From the NCBI GenBank assembly GCA_025769875.1, contig JAGFNK010000186.1, forward strand, positions 1 to 64,000: a DNA stretch of 64,000 nucleotides, read 5' to 3'. Both the position numbers and the translations under genes were made by a program. Below, piece by piece: positions 21,302 to 53,370 of this stretch. Source of the DNA: Russula earlei. Taxonomy: Eukaryota > Basidiomycota > Agaricomycetes > Russulales > Russulaceae. The notes beneath the pieces are model-generated. The model was not told the DNA's origin. It saw only the letters and a list, made by a program, of their open reading frames with translations, and searched no databases. Positions within the stretch are counted from its first letter, which is position 1. Every line of letters begins with the position of its first letter.

Positions 21302-21322
21302 GTGGGCACACAAGTCCCGACT

Positions 21323-21560
21323 TAGTGCTGTCATGGCTTGGCTCGGCTCGGCTTGGTTCAGCTCAGCAACGGCTTGGCCAGATTGGGTGAGCCGGACCGA
21401 GCCAAGCCATGGCTTGTGGCTTGAGCCGATTCAAGCCGTCCCATTTAAGCCATTTCTACTTTTGGATCTACTTTCCATTTTGAGAATGCTCTCGATGCCT
21501 CTCATTGGCTGAGCTGATTCAAGCCATCCCATTTGGGCCATTTCTACTTTTGGATATACA
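21323..21560 (+). repeat. Left terminal and subterminal repeats of hAT-like element
   Basis: Ten-base terminus TAGTGCTGTC, then many GGCTTGG, GGCTCGG, GAGCCGA and TTCAAGCC units. A phrase with CCATTTCTACTTTTGGAT occurs twice (near 21445 and 21535), as does a CATTTTGAGAA.GCTCTCG phrase. Subterminal arrays of this kind serve as transposase binding sites in known hAT elements. Confidence 0.7.
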
Positions 21561-22613
21561 GACTACAGCTATCAACTTTCCATTTTGAGAACGCTCTCGT
21601 GACAACTGAGGCATCAATGCAAGCACACGTCCACTTGCCATCTGCACACCTGTAAGCCTGCCTGGGCCTGTGTTCTTGAAGGAAAAGAGGAAGATCTTGA
21701 GGGAGTCAAAGTGTTCTTTAGGCAGACGAGAGGGCCAACGCGAATACTAGAAAGCTGTTCATTTGATCCATTAGCTACTGTACAAAATGGTGGCTACTGA
21801 TCTTAAATACAAAAGTGCTACTCTAGTGCTACTCCAAGTTCCAGAGTGTGAGGCAGCAAGGTGATGACATCGGGGGCAAGATGCTATGGGCAGCGAGCCC
21901 TTGCATAGGGTGGTGATGATGTTGTGCATGCGTCATGGTGTCTGCGCGTAGACATGTGGCGGGCGAGTGAGGCATTGGCAGCGAGGCATTGAGGGCGAGG
22001 TGTTGAGGGCGAGGCGTGTGATGTCGAAGGTGATCGGACTGGGGTGTTGTCACAGTTCCCGGGCACAGAGTTGGAGATGACGTCAAAAGGCGAGTGCGCG
22101 AGAGAGAAGGAAAGGAAGGAGGATAGGAAGGAGGACGTGTGAGCGAGGGACAAATGAAGGAGACGTGTAGCATGCAAGGGGCCTGTTACAGGTCATGTGA
22201 GATTCCCAGCCAGATACCTTACAGTGGACATGGACAACATTGCTAGTTTTTACTTCTTTTCTTCTGAGGGGCAGAGATGAGCACCGACGCCAGGTCCTGT
22301 GTGCTCATGGGTGTCGTGACCTTGGAGCTTATGCTGTTATCCAGACACCATTTCACTACATGAAACAATGGGTCAGCAGCTAGTGTCATATGATAGGCAA
22401 TGTTACGTACAGTTCAAACAAGGAAGGTTTTGATGAAACTCGTCAGATCAGCACAGGGTAGACAGATATCACAGATTGTGGGGCGCACCCGTGCTAATAA
22501 GACGATGGGTATGTACCGCAAATGCTCATACTCATGGATCGTCTCGGTCTGCTGTACATTGTCCATAAAACACAATATTGAAACTTACCACATTGAGCGA
22601 ATCGATGACGATA
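21561..22613. other. Cargo without recognisable gene
   Basis: Mixed sequence within the hAT-like element. The minus strand at 21830-22175 is His/Pro/Ser-rich low complexity. The stretch 22380-22613 may belong to the histidine-kinase fragment on the other side of the MITE, but I cannot align it with confidence. Confidence 0.3.
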
Positions 22614-23132
22614 CTATCACCTATGGGGAACTCGCCATTCCACTACCATCTCGCCGATTTCATTTTCCCCTGTATCTGCTCAAACAACCCCATTTGAAAC
22701 TTTGTAGTTATACTATTGAGTGCCATTAATGTCATTCTAGCAAAGAAAAATGGAGGTCCATTGAGTGGTTTTCGAGTAGTATTTTGGCTGGGGGTCACGC
22801 CTGCATCACGCCTTCTGTCATGGCGGAGTGCGGAGTTTGATTCCAGCTGGGTGATCACCACTGCTGTTTCTTAATGCCATGTTACAGGTGGTCCAATTGG
22901 CCAGCACAAGACCATACGTATGAGCAGCGGCTACAGGCAGCTATAACAATGATATATATTGATCTTTTACTTTTACTCGTGCAGCACTGGCCCATGATGT
23001 GAGCACCGCGTTCCGTACATAGCAAGTCCTGGGGGCGGACTTTAATTTGGGATGTGTTACATGTCCGTTACTTTCGTGACATTTGTGACTGGCGAGATGG
23101 TAGTGGAATGGCGAGTTCCCCATAGGTGATAG
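22614..23132. mobile_element. Mariner-type MITE (519 bp)
   Basis: Perfect 42-bp terminal inverted repeats (22614-22655 and 23091-23132) starting CTATCACCTATGGGG, flanked by TA on both sides (22612-22613, 23133-23134). It has no coding capacity. A diverged relative with the same interior lies at 46112-48491. The TA duplication and size suggest a non-autonomous Tc1/mariner element, inserted inside the cargo of the hAT-like transposon. Confidence 0.8.
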
Positions 23133-24380
23133 TAGTATCAATGTGGGGGGGCATGTAGCCTCATCTGTGACTTTGAGTGGATCGTGAATCACATAAGGCC
23201 TGAGTCCGAGTTCCTGTATCCAATCCACCACTGCAATGTTGTCGTATAGCATATCAACGAATAAAATAGTTCCCAAATGGCACCATCTTGGCAAGCGTCG
23301 CGTCCATGGACATCTGGCCAATTTGGGACGTGATGGTGGAGAACTTACTACCCTTGCCAATCTTGCTTTCAACCTGCATACTTCCAGCCATAAGAGCAAC
23401 GAGGTGTTTCAAAATCGACAGCCCTATTCCGTTCCTCTGTATTCCTTCTGAGAGAAGCCGGTGTGTCAAGAAAAAAATGCAGAAAGGTAAAACAGCATGC
23501 ACCCTTGTCGTAGAACCGTCCGCCTGTGCAAAAGTGTCAAAGTTAAAATTCAGCTTGTCCTTGGCAATACCAATGCCGGTGTCCAAGATGCAGAACTTGA
23601 GGGACACACTAGAATCGTCAAGGGTGAGTAGATGGCAACTGAGTGCGACGTGACCCTTCTTGGAGGTTTAGATGGTGTGAGCTTGATCACGTTGCCCACT
23701 AGGTCTGCGATAACTTGCCGGAGGTGGAGGGAATCACCAATGAGCTGGTCTAAAATGTCAGGATCTAGTAAGTGAGGTCCAAGTTGTTCTGTGATGCACG
23801 GACGATTCCTAAAACAGTCTGCCAGAGTGAGAAGGAGACTTGCTCCATGGTCATCCAACCAGCTTTGACTGATTGTTATGTTATTAACGAACTTGTGCTC
23901 AATAATTAGTTCCGTGGCACTCACTTTTTGAGATATCCAATCCACCAGGCCAACCTTATCTTGTGGGACATGTTGGCCAGGAACTCGGATTTACTTTGGC
24001 AGCTTCCCTAGTGGCGGTGTTCTTCTGGATGCTGTCGCGCACTTGTCAAATTCATGACCATCAAGTTTACATTGACAATCAAAACCTGGATGCCCGATGA
24101 GCACACTGCTTGTGAGGTGGTGCACAATCATCTGACTGACCTTCCACATGCCCTGCACGTCTGATTCCGTCTCAGGGTGCATGCTCATCACGATGGCCCG
24201 CATAATCATCTCTTCCTCCGTCAGATCCTCTTCCCTTTCATGTTCCTCGGTCATCTCAACATCGGGCACAGTGCGACCTTTTGGAGAGTGTGAGCATCTG
24301 CAAATCCACCTCTTTGCCTTCATCAGTGGCAGCCACCAGGTGAGAAGGTTGCACAGGCACACCATTGAAGTGAAGCTCCA
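23133..24380 (-). pseudogene. Hybrid histidine kinase fragment (captured)
   Basis: The minus strand encodes, in three frames, pieces of a histidine-kinase catalytic domain. These are an N-box region (HLRQVIADLVGNVIKLTP) near 23700, the G1 box ILDTGIGIAKDKL near 23580, an AQADGSTTR segment, the G2-like NGIGLSILKHLVALMAG near 23400 and GKGSKFS near 23340. Upstream (24000-24380) is an acidic stretch (EEHEREEDLTEEEM). Fungal hybrid kinases signal stress to response regulators. A probable retained intron lies between DGSTTR and GIQRNGIG (about 23440-23510). The first kinase helices, receiver domain and start are not recognised, and frameshifts make it non-functional. Confidence 0.75.
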
Positions 24381-24890
24381 GTGTGCGGTGTGTCAAATGA
24401 GTTGTCGCATCTTGAGGTGTTGTCAAGCATTGGCCGCATTGTTGTTGCCATTGATGCGGTTGCTGCTGTCGTGGCAGAGGCTGAGGTGTGGTCGTTCGAG
24501 GCAATGGGGTGGCAAGAGGCAAGGGCATAGGCGATGGCGTTGTGGAATGGGTGGGCATGGGGGTGTGACTTGTGTGTTGCTCATGCTGTCGTCTTGCCAG
24601 CCTGGCAATGAGGTCTTTGCCACTGCGTGTTGTATCAGCACATGTGAACGAGGGTGTACATGTGGACGGGGATGCGATGGAAGAGGTGGTGTGGTGCAGC
24701 GTGGTGCTTGTGTCAGCAGCTTCTCCTGTGGCGACGTCGTGGTGGCGGGGTCTGATCTTTTGGCGGGGCGGCATTGCTGGGCTCAGGTCCGAGGCCTTGG
24801 TCTTCTTGGGCAATGGCGCTGGTGGCATGAGGTGATGACGGCGCATCGTGGCTGGTGAGGACGGCCTCATATGCATCGCAGATGAGAAGT
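24381..24890 (-). other. Low-complexity cargo (Pro/Thr/His/Gln-rich)
   Basis: Minus-strand frame rich in Pro, Thr, His and Gln, running without a stop into the upstream end of the histidine-kinase fragment. It resembles the GC-rich block at 8460-8760 in composition and in short shared phrases (GGCCGAGGCCTT-like). It may be a Gag-type or kinase linker. Confidence 0.35.
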
Positions 24891-24939
24891 AAGGGTGTGG
24901 CGATGTCCTGAGAGATTCAACACGGGGCGTGTCAGCATG

Positions 24940-25305
24940 CTACATGCATTTAGATGCAGAGGCAAAGACCCAGACCCAGAAAAGATACGATGCGAGACTG
25001 ATTGAGGCATATATAGGGACCATGAGGAGCAGGTGGATGATATCTGTGAACAAAATCAGGCAAACTGTTGACACATGATGCGTGGCCATAACAACAAACA
25101 GCACGTACAGTGCTGCTCTTATGATGATTACAAAGATCTTAACAGACTCTGGTTCGGAGGGATCGCGCAGATGCAAACGTACATTGGTGTGCCACTGAAG
25201 ATGCTTGTTGAGGAGCCAGGAGGAGGCCATGATGGCCACGATGGTGAAGAAACCGGATACATGCCAGCCAACATCGTGCGCTAATGGCACCACACACAGG
25301 GACAC
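24940..25305 (-). pseudogene. DUF300/Ost-alpha-like membrane protein fragment (captured)
   Basis: The minus strand encodes two hydrophobic helices: GFFTIVAIMASSWLLNKHLQW, then, after an apparent 139-bp intron (25044-25182, GTACGT..CACAG), IIHLLLMVPIYASISLASYLF. The HLQW motif before a break and LMVPIYA after it are characteristic of the DUF300 (organic solute transporter alpha/TMEM184) family. Only the first exons are present. Retention of the intron shows capture of genomic DNA. The family call is from recalled motif pattern. Confidence 0.65.
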
Positions 25306-25892
25306 GCTATCGATTAGACCAGGTCTGATGACACAAGACTATCGCACTGACTTTGAAATACCACGTTGCCAAGCTGAAAGAGAGAAGGTCCTTTCTGGGG
25401 TGCCCTGGGAGGCTGGGCAGAAAGCAGGTCGCGTTTTGCGACATGGCTTGGTGCAAAACCAGTGTGATATGAGAATCAAAGAGATCATGAGGCTGAGTTG
25501 TTAGGTGTTGTGATAGAAAAGATCATATGAACAGACAATACTAGGGTGTGCTCGTGGTGGCCAGCCGGAAAGGGAGGCCATAGGAGCTGTGATAGTTTAA
25601 ATTGGTTGCTTCACAGACATGCAATTTAGAGTCAACCATGAGTGTTCAAGAGTATTGAGACATACACAGATACACCACATCCTCCCTCTTAACGTATTTT
25701 TCTACCTTACCACTTCACTGGCATCTGATGTGCGTCCCAGCCAGCTTGCGCTCAAGTTCAGCACTGGGATCATCAATGACCAGGCTTTCAGGGCGATGAC
25801 CAACACCCTGCTGCGGTGTATGGCCACTGTAATAGCATGAAGTGGCACCATCTAATGGAGTGTCGTCACGAATCAGAGAGGCAACGATATTG

Positions 25893-27304
25893 TTATGAAA
25901 TGGGATCATCAACCTGCACAAAAGGGAACCACCTTAGTGAGCAGGAAAAGTAAAGAAAGTGAAAGACAATAGATACTGCACAGGGCAACCAGAAGAGAGA
26001 GAGAAACTGAAACTGCGACATGCACTGCCGATTCTGGTTTGAACATGCCGCGGTGTGGACCTCCGACCGAAAGAGGTTCACTTTCTCGACGATGAGCTTT
26101 CTTCATACCTTTGATCAAGTCTTCCTCCTCAAAGAAAAGGTCGAATTTCTAACCGAGTAGAATACACACATTGGTTTCTAACGTGATGCTGGCTATCATG
26201 TTGACACACAGCTGGGCAGATGGCCTCGTCCATCGGGTCGTGCCAGATGGTGAGATATGGGCGCTCCAACACCTGTTCACATGCAATGCATTTCGCAGGA
26301 TCAAAGTTGAGCATCTTGGTGAGAAGATCAAGGGCAAGTGGGTTCACATGCGGAAACATTTGCGCAAACGGCACATGTGGCCTGATGGGGAGCAAGGGGA
26401 TGTAATCTTGTGCCTGTTGGTTTGGGCAATCAGTTTTAGCACAGGTAACATCAGCGTGCATCGAGTTTTTAAAACAACATACCCTAGGTGTTCCAAGGTA
26501 ATGCAGGATCTGATTCAATTGATCAACATAGCTGTCCAAACCATTAGGCATCATAAGCAAAAGTTGAGGAGCACTGCCCTCACTCTTTCCCTTTAAAGAT
26601 GGGCTTGCCAGCCAAACGCTCGTCCAAAATACACCCAACAGACCATACGTTGATGGCAGAGGCCTACCAAAAAGAACACAGAAGAAAGAGGAGAAAATGA
26701 ACCTAACCTCACAAGAGGAGGGTGAAACTGGGTGCTGCCTGAGACGCATGTAATTTGCAAAGCTGAGCATGAGCTCCGGCATGCAGTACCACCGTGTCGC
26801 GACATACTCAGTCATGAAGCCCTGCTTCTGCGCCTGATTGAACCCGCGTGCGAGACCAAAGTCGCAAATCTTGAGCTCGCAGTCCGCATTCACGAGCAGA
26901 TTTCCCGGCTTGAGGTCATGGTGCAGCATGTCGGCCAAGTTTCAGGCTGCACAGCATCTGATAGATGAAGGATTGAAAGTGTGCATCCTACGGGGGTTGG
27001 CCAGAATGGATCTGTCCAGAGGGAAAGTTCAATTTCACCATGAAGGTGTGATCGGGTGATCAAAGCATGATGGCGTGGAGGTCGGCCTCCATGAGCTCTT
27101 CGTATAGATACACTTCATCAAAGTTCCCGTCCAGGCCAAAGATGATGTCCATGTCATACAGCCAAGTGATCTACACCAAACTGACAGGATGAGGTCGGCA
27201 CACCCATGAGGAAACCATTTAAGAAAAGAAAAGGCAGTTGAGCATCTCATCCAGTTACCATAGCACGAGCATAGTTGTGTCGACAGGGATAGAAAAGTCA
27301 TCAT
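25893..27304 (-). pseudogene. Slt2/Mpk1-type MAP kinase fragment (captured)
   Basis: Cell-wall-integrity MAP kinases phosphorylate targets after dual phosphorylation of a TEY loop. The minus strand shows, in order, a DMDIIF and [13 protein letters not shown] stretch (about 27170-27060), the catalytic loop as LHHDLKPGNLL (26935-26895), DFGLARGF (near 26860), TEY at 26804-26812 and VATRW. Then come an intron of about 55 bp ending at 26664, a DYVDQLNQILHYLGTP segment (near 26500) and LALDLLTKMLNFDPAKCI (near 26300). HRD is replaced by HHD, consistent with a CpG-to-CpA change. Several frameshifts and stops exist. N-lobe motifs were not found. It is a decayed gene copy, not a processed one. Confidence 0.82.
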
Positions 27305-28040
27305 TCCAAGGCATGGTGATCATGTCCAAGGTGAAGTCCATCAGTTCACCAGGTTGGCCTGCGACACCAAACATGAAAATTGGTGGTTGCTCCAGGACGT
27401 AGTTTGCTGGTCCTTCCGTCAAAACTGCATTCGTGAAATTGGATGGAGCCATCACCCCACTATTCTGTGGCATGGATGTTTCTCCGTTGTTGTCCAGACC
27501 TTTGCCCTTGCTGCATCAGCTGTCTTCTTCAGCCTGAGATGTGTACGACAAATGGCCCGCGTGTGATGGAGCAGGCACCAGGGAGCGCACTTTAGCCACA
27601 GGGCCATAACCAGGAAGCAGCGGGAGGTGATACATCTGGGAGAGGTGGTCAGCCCTGCATGCACTGTGCAAGGGGAAAGGTTGAAGGACAAGGGGTCAGC
27701 AAGGAATGTATGACATAGAGAGCCTCATCAAACGAACAAGGGATGACATTGTGCTCGTGCTTGAGAAAGTTGGCAAGCAGCTTCATGCAAAAGCCATCCG
27801 CAAGCCAGTAAGCGGTGAATGGCAGCACCCAGCTCGGCAGCGCTCTGCCTTGGTCTTGCGTTCCATGGTGCTCTTATGCTTGCGCATGTGCACGCCTGTG
27901 TCTGTCTCATAGCCATGGATCTCGTCATCTTTGCCTTGTTCTGCAGGGAGGGGGCGGGTCTGAGGGTCGGACGGGAACTCAATGAGCTCGTCTTTGATGA
28001 GTCTTTGAGGTACATTGGGTAGCGGTGGCTTTGAGAGCTC
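27255..28040 (-). pseudogene. Unidentified gene fragment(s) in hAT-like cargo
   Basis: Minus-strand pieces with non-random composition: a segment with KDELIEFPSDPQTRPLPAE and ETDTGVHMRKHKST (27850-28000), and one with PSNFTNAVLTEGPANYVLEQ (near 27400). Upstream of these, 28119-28220 carries a direct repeat of about 24 bp (GCAGACGACTCTCC..., at 28132 and 28184). I do not recognise the parent gene. Confidence 0.35.
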
Positions 28041-28239
28041 CAGTAGGGTTGGGGTGGGGGAGATGATTAATGGATCTTGGCAGGATGAAGGAAGGCTTGC
28101 AGCCTGTGAGAGCAAGGTGTGGTGGGGATTGGCAGACGACTCTCCAAATCGAGCTACATACCCAAATCTGGCGAAGCAGAGTGGCAGACGACTCTCCAAA
28201 TCGAGCAACCATATCCAAATGTGGCACTTCAAACATCCA

Positions 28240-28382
28240 AATGTGGCAATCAAAACGGCTCAAAATGGCTCAATGCTGTTTTGAGCGGCTCAAAGCCGTG
28301 AGCCATTGAACAGCTTGGCTCGGCTCAAATACAGCTCCGGCTTGGCTTGAAATGGTTTCAAGCCGAGCCGGCGACTGCACTA
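28240..28382 (-). repeat. Right terminal and subterminal repeats of hAT-like element
   Basis: Clustered GGCTCAAA, CTTGGCTCGGCTC and AAGCCGAGCC units ending GACTGCACTA at 28382, the inverted partner of the left terminus. Confidence 0.7.
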
Positions 28383-28396
28383 TCCTGACTCCCTAG

Positions 28397-39292: not shown

Positions 39293-40654
39293 TCATTGAT
39301 GGCAGGTATAGTCTCTGACTGGTCGATTGTAGATTCGTCGCACCAGCCAGGTGATTAGGCCAGCCTTGTAGGCTTCTACTGCTCCTGGTGAATTCTGGTC
39401 CCATCCTGCTTTACTGAGCAGAACAAGGAACTTGCTGGTATAGTCATCCAGCGATGCTGCTTTAGACATGGACAATTGTTGTAGCTCCATGAAAGCATCT
39501 TCAGGCTCTGTGGTGTCTTTGAATTCTCTGAAGAAGTCATCCACAAATTCGGTCCAAAAGAGCATGTCAGTTGGATCTAGCTGCACTGGTGCATAAGGAG
39601 ACGGCGGGTCCCCATTTCTTTTTGCTTCTACCAGGTTCGTTTGATTGACCACCCATTCATGTACTTTCTCTCCTTTGATGTAGGTGAGAGCTAGGGCTAC
39701 TCGCTTCATTGGAATAGTCATGGTCGGGTTGTCGCTGTTGAGCAGATTCCATAGATTGAAATCCTGGACAAAGTACTTCGTCTTTTTCCTGTCTCCTTTG
39801 AAGACTTCAGGAGGGTCTCCTTTTAGAGATCCGTTGCCCCCATGGGGGCCTGGTGCCGGCTGAGGTGCCAGATTCGCCCCTGGTCCTACAGGAGGTGCTG
39901 CTGGTGGTCCCCCTGCTGGAGGGCCTCCTCCGGGTGGGCCTCCTCCTGGTACTGGTGGACCTCCAGGTCCGAAGGGGACTCCTCCACCTCCAGGTGGTCC
40001 TCCTGCTCCAGGTGGACCACCTCCAGGGTTTACTACGATGGTGGGCCCTGCTCTTCCACCTGCTGTCTGGGTGGCAATGGTGGCTGTCTGCGTTGCTGCA
40101 ATGGTAGCCATTTCGACTGATTCTTCTGGCTCTTCAACGATTGTTGGTTCAATGGGCGAGACGTGTACTGTCTGCTCTAGTCTTTCAGCTAGCTCCAATA
40201 CTTCTGGTGCTTCTGCTTTCTGATCTGTAGTCGGAGGGTCCGACTGTTCTGTTTCTCCACTTGATGACTTTTGTATCAATGGAGCTGGGTCGTCTACTAC
40301 TGGGCTTCTGGGTTCCCAATGAGTAGTATAAGGATCTGTCTTGGTTCCTAAACCTAGGACCTTATATTCGTCGATGTCTTCGTCCTCTCCTGCGTAGGGA
40401 CGTCCTTTGTGGTAATCAACAAAGTACCACTGATCGTTGATGTATTCACAAGGAAGGTAGCTTCCTTTGTATCGGACCTCGTATCTGTTAGGCCCTTCCT
40501 GGTCTGCCCAACACCAGATGGCAGTTCCTTTGATTCCTGAGGGTAGATCGTCCCTCTCTCTAGCTTTGAACCAACCAAATTTGGTTCCTTGCTTTGATTT
40601 CTGGTTGAACTTTACGCGTATGCTATGTTCTCCTTCGATTTCCAGTTTGTCCAC
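39293..40654 (-). CDS. Gag (pre-capsid and capsid) of P2
   Basis: Open frame of about 453 codons, the longest in the window. Residues 1-85 form the pre-capsid module (FGWFKARERDDLPSG, AIWCWAD, CEYINDQWYFVDY). Residues about 110-200 are an acidic linker. Residues about 205-270 form a Gly/Pro-rich collagen-like stretch. The rest is the Ty3/Gypsy capsid (PEVFKGDRKKTKYF, LTYIKGEKVHEWV, SLDDYTSKFLVLL). The frame opens at GTG with no clear ATG, and upstream two stops separate it from the short 40690-40860 peptide. The downstream nucleocapsid is frameshifted, so Gag would be truncated. Confidence 0.75.
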   Translation of the reverse strand: MDKLEIEGEHSIRVKFNQKSKQGTKFGWFKARERDDLPSGIKGTAIWCWADQEGPNRYEVRYKGSYLPCEYINDQWYFVDYHKGRPYAGEDEDIDEYKVLGLGTKTDPYTTHWEPRSPVVDDPAPLIQKSSSGETEQSDPPTTDQKAEAPEVLELAERLEQTVHVSPIEPTIVEEPEESVEMATIAATQTATIATQTAGGRAGPTIVVNPGGGPPGAGGPPGGGGVPFGPGGPPVPGGGPPGGGPPAGGPPAAPPVGPGANLAPQPAPGPHGGNGSLKGDPPEVFKGDRKKTKYFVQDFNLWNLLNSDNPTMTIPMKRVALALTYIKGEKVHEWVVNQTNLVEAKRNGDPPSPYAPVQLDPTDMLFWTEFVDDFFREFKDTTEPEDAFMELQQLSMSKAASLDDYTSKFLVLLSKAGWDQNSPGAVEAYKAGLITWLVRRIYNRPVRDYTCHQ

Positions 40655-40940
40655 TTGCCACTGCCTTTCCTAGGGAGTCGGGACTTGTCTGCCCTCTTAC
40701 CACTGTCTATGCCAATGACAGTAGGGGTCTTTACAGAAGTATGTGTGTGTCCAACCGTGCTGCTCGTCGAGAGTCACGTAGTACACCTTCTTCTTGTCAT
40801 GGAGAGGTCTGTATAGATTCTCCCCCTTGACTACTTCAGCGTAGGTTGCTGACCGTATGATGACTAGATCCTAGTCTTTAGGCTTCCTGCCTATTTCTGG
40901 TTCGCTTTCACAGTGATGTCTGTGATAGAAGCTCGACTTA
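40655..40940 (-). other. P2 leader with short upstream peptide
   Basis: Between LTR and Gag. The minus strand 40860-40690 encodes the same peptide as P1 21135-21301 (EVVKGENLYRPLHDKKKVYY, FCKDPYCHWHRQW) and ends at the same TAA. It contains the empty site TCCCGACT for the hAT-like insertion. Confidence 0.6.
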
Positions 40941-41528
40941 TGTTAAGGCTCCAAAGTGCCTTAAATAAGATCAATGGTCGCGTCTATAAACGCGTCCTAC
41001 CAATGCAGATATGCTTGAGTCAAGCAAGCAATACTCGTGGAGGGAAGGAGTGTTAGATCCTTCTAGAGTATGACAACAAGATGAGAGGGGCTCTGCAGAC
41101 GGGGTAGGAGTCAACTGTTTGGGATTGGCAAACTAAGTCGAGCTTAAGGCTCAACTGTTTCTACTGGAGGCTTTATATAGCCCTACAGGGATAAGGTTCA
41201 TACTACTGTAGTACTGGTTGGTGCTATAGAAGCTAAAAGGCAGCTCATAGAAGCAAGGTTGCTTCTATGTAAACGATCTTGGTGCTGGAAGCATTAAGTG
41301 CTTCCCCAATCAAGGAATCGACGTACGTGGCGATACAGGAACATCTGGGACAGAAGCAATGCTACTCATTGCCTTTTCAGCACATCTTCTGAAAGATACG
41401 ATCAACGCGCTCCGAATGTGCTATTAAGGAACATAAACGATCAAGATCTGACGCACGCATAATGCAAATGGTGCAGTCCATAGTTCAGGCGCTCCGGCAT
41501 CTTCTGGACCCCAAACCACTCGGTAACA
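40941..41528 (-). repeat. 5' LTR of P2 (588 bp)
   Basis: + strand TGTTAAGGC...CTCGGTAACA. It has a TATATAG-type box mirrored near 41170 and many intact CpGs. Flank GTAAG at 41529-41533. The other flank is lost. Confidence 0.9.
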
Positions 41529-49504: not shown

Positions 49505-50859
49505 ATGACTGAGGAGGAAGCCGAGTTCTTAAACTTCCTCTTGGAGCACAAGGACCAAATGACGTCCAACGCTATGTTCAAGGATCAAGTCTTCAATGAG
49601 GCGGCCAGTCAAATTAGGTCCTGTTGTAAGAAGGGTGGCTTCAAAACTCTGAGCTCATGCAAGACGAAGTGACAAAGGGTACATGTTTCCTCTTTTCACT
49701 ACACCTCAACACTGACATCGTTCAACTAGATGAAGACCGACTGGGACACCATTTCAGTGATCAAAAATAAGTCTGGCATGGCTTGGGATGATGTGACAGG
49801 AATGGACATATCAGCAGAAAATCAAAATCAGGCAGTGTATGATGAGCTGGTTGCAGTGCATCTGTAACTCCTGATTTGTCGACAATATCTTACTTTAGTA
49901 GGACAAACCAGCGGTCAAGAAGTTCCACCACAAGGGCTGGCCACATTGTGAGGCCATGGAATCTCTTGTAGGAACAAAAACCAAAGGCAAACATGCATAC
50001 CAGGCTTTGCAGCCAACACCTTGTGCTGAGCATGCTCCATCCCAGCCACCTACTCCTGCTCACCTGACCCCCAATTTGTCTCAAGTCGGCGGCAGCAGGA
50101 GGGCATTGACTTCACCATCAAATACCTCATTCGACTTCGCAAATACCTCATTTGACTTCGTAACCAACAAGTGTAAATCACCTTGCATTGATGATATCCT
50201 GATGTACGAAACATCTTCAGCTAAAAAACAGAGGGGTGACACCGTGGCGTCTGCTGTCATGGGTGTTACAGCGGTCATGAACAGAGTTGTTGATGTCTTC
50301 GACTCAACTGTCCATTCTCTTGGTTTCTCTCCGCCCATGCCTGAATTTGCACCCGCACCCACACTCGCACTCACACTCGCACTCGCACTCGCACTCGCAC
50401 TCGCACCCACACCCGCACCCACACCCGCACCCGCACCCGCACCCGCACCCGCACCCGCACCCGCACCCGCACCCGCACCCGCACCCGCACCCGCACCCGC
50501 ACCCGCACCCGCACCCGCACCCGCACCCGCACCCCACACCCGCACCCACACCCGCACCTGCACCCGCACCTGCACCTGCACCTGCACCCGCACTCGCAGG
50601 TGATACTGTACCTGGATTTTTGGCACTTCCCGAGTATGCATGCTGGACACTGGCAGTCCAACACCTTGCCAGTGATATCAAGGATATCACAAATGGTTGT
50701 TGGTTGCCAACTGATGATATTGTCCCAGCATTATCCCTGTTTGCCAATTGCGGCATCGGAGAGGTGGATGGCTACCTTGCATTCATATCTGTGGAGTCAT
50801 CACGTGAGTTTGCACATGGATACATATGTAATCTGGTGGAGAAAGTGAAGCGAGCGTAA
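49505..50859 (+). pseudogene. Myb/SANT-like DNA-binding protein of Harbinger element
   Basis: This partner protein binds transposon ends and brings transposase to the nucleus in Harbinger systems. ATG at 49505 (MTEEEAEFLNFLLEHK). Probable exons are 49505-49678, 49730-49855 and 49902-50859, with GT..AG introns. The domain pattern SCCKKGGFKTL, MKTDWDTISVIKNKSGMAWD, then KKFHHKGWPHCEAMESLVG fits Myb/SANT-like PF12776. A TGA at 49670 replaces a conserved tryptophan. A hexamer repeat (50348-50592) encodes Ala-Pro runs. The reading frame shifts by one base within it, at the CCCC run near 50531, before resuming as AGDTVPGFLALPEYACW. The gene is disabled. Confidence 0.8.
50348..50592 (+). repeat. Hexanucleotide microsatellite (CCCGCA)n
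   Basis: About 40 units of CCCGCA with CTCGCA, CCCACA and CCTGCA variants at both edges, inside the Myb/SANT gene. In the gene frame it encodes alternating Ala-Pro. On either strand the other frames give His-Pro, Gly-Ala or Cys-Gly runs with no meaning. Confidence 0.95.
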
Positions 50860-52907: not shown

Positions 52908-52980
52908 TGGCCAGACTGGGGATTGAACCCAGGACCTCCCAGATATATACCAGGTGCTCTAACCACTGAGCTACCTAGCC
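52908..52980 (-). tRNA. tRNA-like gene inside LTR-like element, copy a
   Basis: Folds as a full 73-nt cloverleaf. The acceptor GGCTAGG pairs with TCTGGCC (two G-U), followed by discriminator A. The D arm is GCTC/GAGC, the anticodon arm CCTGG/CTGGG with loop TATATAT, the variable loop AGGTC, and the T arm CTGGG/CCCAG with loop TTCAATC. The A box (TAGCTCAGTGG) and B box (GGTTCAATCC) are strong. By position the anticodon would be TAT (Ile), but base 33 is A instead of the invariant T, so a translational role is doubtful. A tRNA-derived pol III promoter or structural module is likelier. Confidence 0.65.
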
Positions 52981-53297: not shown

Positions 53298-53370
53298 GGC
53301 TAGGTAGCTCAGTGGTTAGAGCACCTGGTATATATCCGGGAGGTCCTGGGTTCAATCCCCAGTCTGGCCA
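53298..53370 (+). tRNA. tRNA-like gene inside LTR-like element, copy b
   Basis: Same cloverleaf as copy a, with anticodon stem CCTGG/CCGGG and loop TATATAT. All stems are closed, counting G-U pairs, and the total is 73 nt. A and B boxes are intact. It is followed at once by TTTT. Copies a and b differ at only a few positions outside and one inside the tRNA, and none breaks a stem. Confidence 0.68.

Follow-up and report, generated by a model that had tools for sequence, protein, structure and literature searches.

Plant Pack-MULEs are composite, multi-copy members of the Mutator superfamily that hold fragments from several loci, and in basidiomycetes the gene-capturing Helitrons of Pleurotus ostreatus reportedly carry host genes. 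The element described here occupies part of a 64,000-nucleotide stretch of the Russula earlei genome (the window: assembly GCA_025769875.1, contig JAGFNK010000186.1, here C186, positions 1 to 64,000). It is composite and multi-copy like Pack-MULEs but has other ends and another duplication length, and it parallels the Helitrons as a case of basidiomycete gene capture, although these are said to be rolling-circle elements without terminal inverted repeats (TIRs) or an 8-bp duplication. In keeping with the initial annotation, which had proposed a basidiomycete Pack-hAT, the termini, duplications and host-gene cargo make this very probably a Pack-TYPE (transduplicating) hAT transposon. Its interior is made up mostly of host-gene fragments, and siblings bearing the same termini probably supplied the transposase that moved and multiplied it. 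Pack-TYPE hATs are known in maize and rice, and the portions of PMC8903248 cited here describe the same combination of hAT termini, target duplication, host coding pieces and no transposase; the Russula family differs in its basidiomycete host and in having modules common to transposase-less and transposase-bearing copies.

In the fungi, a histone H3-like hAT of Pyrenophora tritici-repentis likewise combines TIRs, a host gene, and transposase-bearing long and non-autonomous short forms, but the cited sections of PMC3538342 mention one identified host gene and an open reading frame (ORF) of unknown function, whereas the Russula element holds fragments from two loci, including an apparently decayed mitogen-activated protein kinase (MAPK) gene. 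According to the relevant part of PMC6710886, the H3 cargo in P. tritici-repentis is a captured transcript whose copies are mostly coding-competent. The same part describes an H3 hAT of ∼9.5 kb in Pseudocercospora fijiensis and relatives, which shares the 8-bp duplication, captured gene and inactivated copies with the present family; however, its housekeeping-gene cargo is intronless, as a captured transcript, and shows a CA-to-TA (repeat-induced point mutation, RIP) bias, whereas the Russula copies retain their introns and have decayed chiefly at CpG sites. Animal Pack-TIRs, including Pack-hAT-N8_XT, similarly hold filler DNA within TIR elements but are mostly single copy as presented in the cited portion of PMC8277862, unlike the multi-copy Russula family with its composite cargo. 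No case of hAT gene capture in Russula or another basidiomycete was found among the papers listed by searches of an open-access library.

The element begins with TAGTGCTGTC at position 21323 and ends with GACTGCACTA at 28382, so that its inverted termini read TAGTGC(A/T)GTC, and this 10-mer (either base at the variable position, both strands) has no other occurrence in the window. The TIRs of hAT elements follow the consensus TAGNG/CAGNG, and short TIRs of this type, TAGTGCTGTC/GACAGCACTA, were seen in the end readings of the family. GGCTYRGC-type motifs occur five times in the first 250 bp of the window element and three times in the last 250 bp, with none in its interior and ∼0.03 per 250 bp in shuffled sequence. 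The flanks, TCCCGACT and TCCTGACT, are alike at seven of eight positions. The insertion lies inside a retroelement copy. On the minus strand of the window, at 40376-40975, a second copy of this retroelement is 95% identical to the two flanks joined together (600 bp) and contains a single TCCCGACT; a further genomic copy (locus L032, 93% identical) is also uninterrupted and contains a single TCCCAACT. The site differences at TCCTGACT and TCCCAACT both fall at a CpG. Given these uninterrupted sister retroelements with one 8-bp site, the window flanks are a duplication, and the base at which they differ has gone from C to T within a CpG. The inverted ends, near-identical flanks, subterminal repeats and empty site that had been picked out from the sequence of the window all stand, and the concern that empty sites elsewhere might show the flank not to be a duplication can be set aside.

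The window belongs to a genome of 66.6 Mb in 1374 contigs that contains many copies of these ends. The 200-bp left end matches many loci (best 40 of 122 candidates scored), as does the 200-bp right end (best 40 of 86). Allowing at most one mismatch, the end patterns occur at 105 left and 60 right places, compared with 0 genome matches for a reversed-pattern control. Pairing, which drew on 100 of the 105 left places and all 60 right places, gave 19 same-strand combinations less than 25 kb apart, spanning 6.5-14.1 kb and using 18 distinct right ends. Perfect 8-bp duplications were present in 13 of the 16 elements read at both ends (loci used for reading ends and flanks included L001-L008 and L028), and the element on C788 is flanked by a 7-bp repeat.

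The cargo of the window element, designated type A, recurs collinearly at no fewer than nine loci (the window, C541, C205, C1032, C583, C609, C7, C389 and C88; best 40 of 1108 candidates), so other copies of the kind that the initial annotation had suggested looking for do exist. Both ends are present in the window, C205, C1032, C389 and C88 copies. In all five the cargo stays between the same termini, rather than running past them, and three of the five have perfect duplications within unrelated flanks, as expected of a sequence mobilised as a unit. The C205 and C541 copies, which sit in different flanks, have 99.85% identity, indicating that the family moved comparatively recently; type A copies differ by up to 5.6%, which indicates that it is not young.

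A hAT transposase domain (PF05699; best 150 of 260 genomic candidates scored) was detected inside C19 and C20, elements with the same ends, both termini present and perfect duplications. No PF05699 match fell within C186:21323-28382 among those 150, nor any hAT match in the ten C205 ORFs scanned, and type A thus lacks a transposase, as Pack-TYPE elements do. Together with the 13 perfect duplications, these siblings support the earlier assignment to the hAT superfamily. The two closest relatives of the typed exon peptide, both basidiomycete, are 41-42% identical over its whole length. Between C19 and C22, the ratio of nonsynonymous to synonymous changes (pN/pS) was 0.20 across 12 exon pieces (594 codons in total), which were picked from C19 by eye with unplaceable stretches left out and may therefore favour conserved parts. 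A neutral simulation, with rates taken from type A copies, had a mean of 0.82 and no value as low in 500 runs, and a nine-piece version (484 codons, without the piece holding the C19 stop) gave much the same. A value so far below simulation indicates that purifying selection has acted on the transposase. Only the C22 copy is stop-free in all 12 pieces. The search for an autonomous hAT with the same ends, also proposed at the outset, therefore yielded transposase-bearing siblings, with those read at both ends being damaged. Movement of type A in trans by a sibling transposase is plausible from these sequences.

At least four different interiors are bounded by one set of termini. Types A, B and C have ∼230 bp on the left and 200-215 bp on the right in common and little of the interior. 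The type A interior comprises histidine kinase (HK), DUF300 and MAPK pieces. In type B, of which five copies (7.3-7.4 kb) were fetched, the same HK gene is represented by its HAMP part, accompanied by a DUF155 piece above cut-off and by VWA_2 and UIM matches that are both below cut-off among the plus-strand ORFs scanned and only suggestive of an Rpn10-like piece. Type C is represented by three fetched copies of ∼9.25 kb and the related 8.5-kb C788, and the interiors of types B and C match many further loci in the genome. Type D is C19 (10,120 bp, perfect duplication), in which the left part of type A, including HK sequence, is followed by the hAT transposase, a MAPK piece and the right part of type A. 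C20 (8,182 bp, perfect duplication) bears a transposase and has its first 165 bp in common with the family, but only short stretches on the right side; C22 is also transposase-bearing, with its right end not reached. At either end, type D is collinear with type A (∼95-96% identity between C205 and positions 1-2547 and 9148-10120 of C19), which would suit a history in which type D is ancestral and type A its deletion derivative. We consider that order possible but somewhat unlikely, as type D keeps just 283 bp of the type A MAPK segment and has no DUF300 match, which fits an origin of type D by recombination between an A-like element and a transposase element.

Several other sequences in the genome resemble parts of the family. 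A stretch of contig C21 (L032 1725-5321) is related to the type A interior and has many changes resembling CpG decay; it is without exact termini in the fetched DNA and lies near the retroelement copy that is empty at the insertion site of the window. Left-end-like sequences with TTGTG or AAGTG variants are paired in inverted orientation on C138, C227, C16 and C912, at spacings of 0.8-3.1 kb, and may constitute a family of short fold-back derivatives. The same one-mismatch version of a right-end-like sequence recurs five times on C289, and more such matches lie on C841, C139 and C35; these represent a possible sister subfamily.

Alignment to intact host loci, another step proposed with the initial annotation, identified donors for the cargo on C75 and C167, and confirmed the presence of HK, DUF300 and MAPK fragments, introns included. 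Such identifiable host coding fragments between transposon ends are the hallmark of Pack-TYPE elements. The DUF300 and MAPK cargo is one contiguous 2.46-kb host segment (L030 2332-4790 on C167), to which the element aligns throughout but for small indels and 28 bp that it lacks. On C167 the two genes adjoin on the same strand, and the native MAPK (P0003, 432 residues), which we take to be Slt2-like, has no stop in its exons when examined exon by exon. Twelve matches to the MAPK query cover at least residues 20-188; stops occur in 11, some of them in intron sequence, and C167 alone is stop-free. The part retained in the element corresponds to native residues 79-432 and still has its introns, whereas residues 1-78 are absent. 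Retention of donor introns in this MAPK segment is at odds with the intronless cargo that transcript capture would leave. The Pfam match for DUF300 in C205 is weak (E 0.0043, below cut-off), so this assignment rests on the donor alignment. The earlier count of at least three captured genes is therefore right, at three, as to the genes represented, but MAPK and DUF300 arrived as one segment and there are two donor loci, which rules out three independent captures.

The C75 gene has HisKA, HATPase and HAMP matches above cut-off and a weak receiver match; it is a predicted hybrid histidine kinase, presumably of group III (Nik1-like). Types A and B leave this gene at the same position and continue into the same next module, and they keep different parts of it, a pattern explained by one ancestral capture followed by different deletions. 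Locus L035 (contig C457) contains a longer HK stretch that spans the parts kept in type A and in type B and is followed by right-end-like sequence; it may represent the HK capture with less of it deleted. An orientation bias of the cargo was dropped from consideration, since for only two capture events is the orientation free of bias, and type B was scanned on plus-strand ORFs only.

Gap filling and template switching have been proposed for animal Pack-TIRs in the cited part of PMC8277862, and following that proposal we take gap repair with template switching as the likely mechanism here. Host DNA would enter during break or gap repair inside an element, copied from ectopic templates, with the HK segment probably captured first and the DUF300-MAPK segment later, in the type A lineage. 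Deletions and exchange of segments between copies would then have generated the four or more interior types, while the transposase of siblings would act in trans on the common ends. Alternatively, one end from each of two neighbouring elements could have been used jointly to enclose the DNA between them, a mechanism described for Arabidopsis Pack-CACTA in the cited section of PMC8616336. Capture of a contiguous two-gene segment from C167 would suit this route, but the exact 10-mer termini are absent from the fetched donor DNA (7.0 and 5.0 kb) and the cargo sits internally between non-terminal modules, so it seems improbable compared with gap repair.

Identity between cargo and donors is mostly 84-91%, with one 114-bp HK stretch at 96% (C205), which raises the question of whether the cargo came from another species or a diverged allele instead of the present C75 and C167 genes. 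For the MAPK, pN/pS between the native gene and C205 is 0.23, below the simulated neutral 95% range (0.26-0.91), as if much of the divergence had arisen with both of them functional. A low value is expected if the source allele was already diverged, but also if the native branch alone was constrained, and the up to 5.6% divergence among type A copies is that of a family that is not young. A foreign or diverged source is accordingly a rather remote prospect.

We next consider whether the cargo is functional, for which the tests of selection covered the MAPK cargo and the transposase. The glycine loop and AIKK lysine lie in the absent native MAPK residues 1-78, and the nine copies of the MAPK piece all have one in-frame stop in common. 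Pooled pN/pS among copies was 0.44, within the range of a simulation that used the copies' own mutation spectrum (0.49, 0.36-0.65), although the seven comparisons all share C205 and are not independent; no selection is therefore detected. Given the absent N-terminus, the stop in all nine copies and substitutions within the neutral range, an active kinase is rejected, and the MAPK cargo, which we predict to lack kinase function, looks like a decayed passenger. For the same reasons, the idea that the element joins parts of stress-signalling pathways in a functional sense finds no support: the MAPK and DUF300 genes are neighbours at the donor locus and were not brought together by the element, and a functional signalling joint is not indicated by cargo of this kind. 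It is very unlikely that the family acts as a standing capture-and-shuffle platform in which copies with and without a transposase trade host modules, and read-through from the transposase side yields antisense or small RNAs that tune the parental HK and MAPK genes. A benefit to host or element, through truncated kinases or antisense or small RNAs on those genes, is likewise very unlikely. In its favour, HK and MAPK pieces are antisense to the direction of the transposase in C19, so that read-through transcripts would be antisense, gene predictors built models across the stops, and just one further MAPK stop was seen among seven copies compared to C205, versus 4.3 expected under neutrality (7% of simulations were as low); the missing residues, the stop in every copy and a pN/pS within the neutral range all point the other way.

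A number of observations weigh against the interpretation as a Pack-TYPE hAT. The duplication of the window element is only 7/8 and C88 has none. An often-quoted preference of hAT duplications, though not required of all hATs, is nTnnnnAn, and T at position 2 together with A at position 7 was found in 0 of the 13 perfect duplications. The exon peptide matches only the hAT dimerisation domain in Pfam. The C19 transposase is interrupted by a single in-frame stop, that of C20 is cut within one exon piece and is missing a second piece and part of a third, and that of C1 is decayed; with the fetched copies damaged in this way, a present-day working partner is putative. Cargo is carried by transposase-bearing elements too, so that type A conforms to the strict non-autonomous definition and type D does not. 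Several cargo modules are without a donor among the loci found, and type C has no clear gene cargo, with only a weak Nup188-like match. Even so, we can reject a non-mobile alternative, in which a host segmental duplication was rearranged and has TAGTGC-like ends next to it by chance. It would account for intron-containing genic cargo, the absent C88 duplication and the imperfect one in the window, but the same termini around different interiors at many places, the 13/16 perfect duplications, the empty site and the clean reversed-pattern control contradict it.

The transposon in the window has a history of its own. It carries 118 private substitutions, a tally restricted to positions at which four or more other copies were present and in agreement (C609, C583, C541 and C7 entered this comparison as partial or flank-bearing copies), and 83 of them are CpG transitions. 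Decay mainly by C-to-T change at CpG is as expected of methylated DNA. After insertion, the copy would thus have decayed in this manner and taken in a small nested element (Table 1), which is absent from this place in the other eight of the nine type A loci, has 98-99% identical matches at C50 and C24, and looks like a Tc1/mariner-type miniature inverted-repeat transposable element.

Table 1. Coordinates of the type A element of the window, its flanks and its internal modules.
Feature	Position	Strand	Comment
Whole element, type A interior	21323..28382	+	7060 bp; supported by its ends, the duplication and collinear loci elsewhere
Left 8-bp target-site duplication TCCCGACT	21315..21322		
Left terminal region	21323..21553	+	TAGTGCTGTC end, subterminal GGCTCGGC-type repeats; common to types A-D (C20, C22: first 165 bp)
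Module, no donor found	21547..22319		89% identical to second locus L036, contig C897
Histidine kinase cargo (HATPase region and HAMP-side piece)	22269..24161	-	Host gene on C75; internal deletions; interrupted by nested element
Nested 519-bp element (22614-23132) plus TA duplication	22612..23134		42-bp perfect inverted repeats
Module common to type B elements	24043..24363		Includes the HK breakpoint of both types
DUF300 (Solute_trans_a) gene, 5' part	24857..25305	-	Donor locus C167
Contiguous captured DUF300-MAPK segment	24857..27274	-	Donor L030 2332-4790
MAPK fragment	25727..27170	-	Within native residues 79-432 of 432; introns kept, in-frame stop; same donor segment
Module, no donor found	27272..27523		Partly present in type B
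Right terminal region	28168..28382	+	Common to types A-D (C20: short piece only)
Right 8-bp target-site duplication TCCTGACT	28383..28390		One C>T at CpG versus empty site

tRNA and Rfam scans of the window found nothing within the element. Outside it, two divergently oriented tRNA-Ile (TAT) genes (52908-52980 and 53298-53370) lie ∼300 bp apart, and self-comparison of the window showed tandem direct repeats of a short unit at 50349-50598.

Some Pack-TYPE elements have been misannotated as genes, according to the cited portion of PMC8903248, and the public gene set of R. earlei suggests a comparable situation. Six R. earlei MAPK entries appear among the 120 proteins listed; five of them are suggested to lie on element-bearing contigs (C1032, C205, C541, C88 and C186) and one matches the native locus on C167. 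The public MAPK/ERK entries placed on element-bearing contigs are P0001, P0002, P0016, P0029 and P0040, and P0029 appears to be a gene model across the element of the window that begins in non-kinase cargo. This suggests that apparent MAPK gene copies in the public gene set sit inside transposons. Fungal hAT transduplication, as presented in the cited parts of PMC3538342 and PMC6710886, concerns histone H3 in ascomycetes and capture of a transcript. The Russula family belongs to a basidiomycete, its cargo is intron-bearing genomic DNA from two loci, and a single set of termini encloses several cargo types; as types have a breakpoint in common, capture, deletion and exchange can be placed in order.

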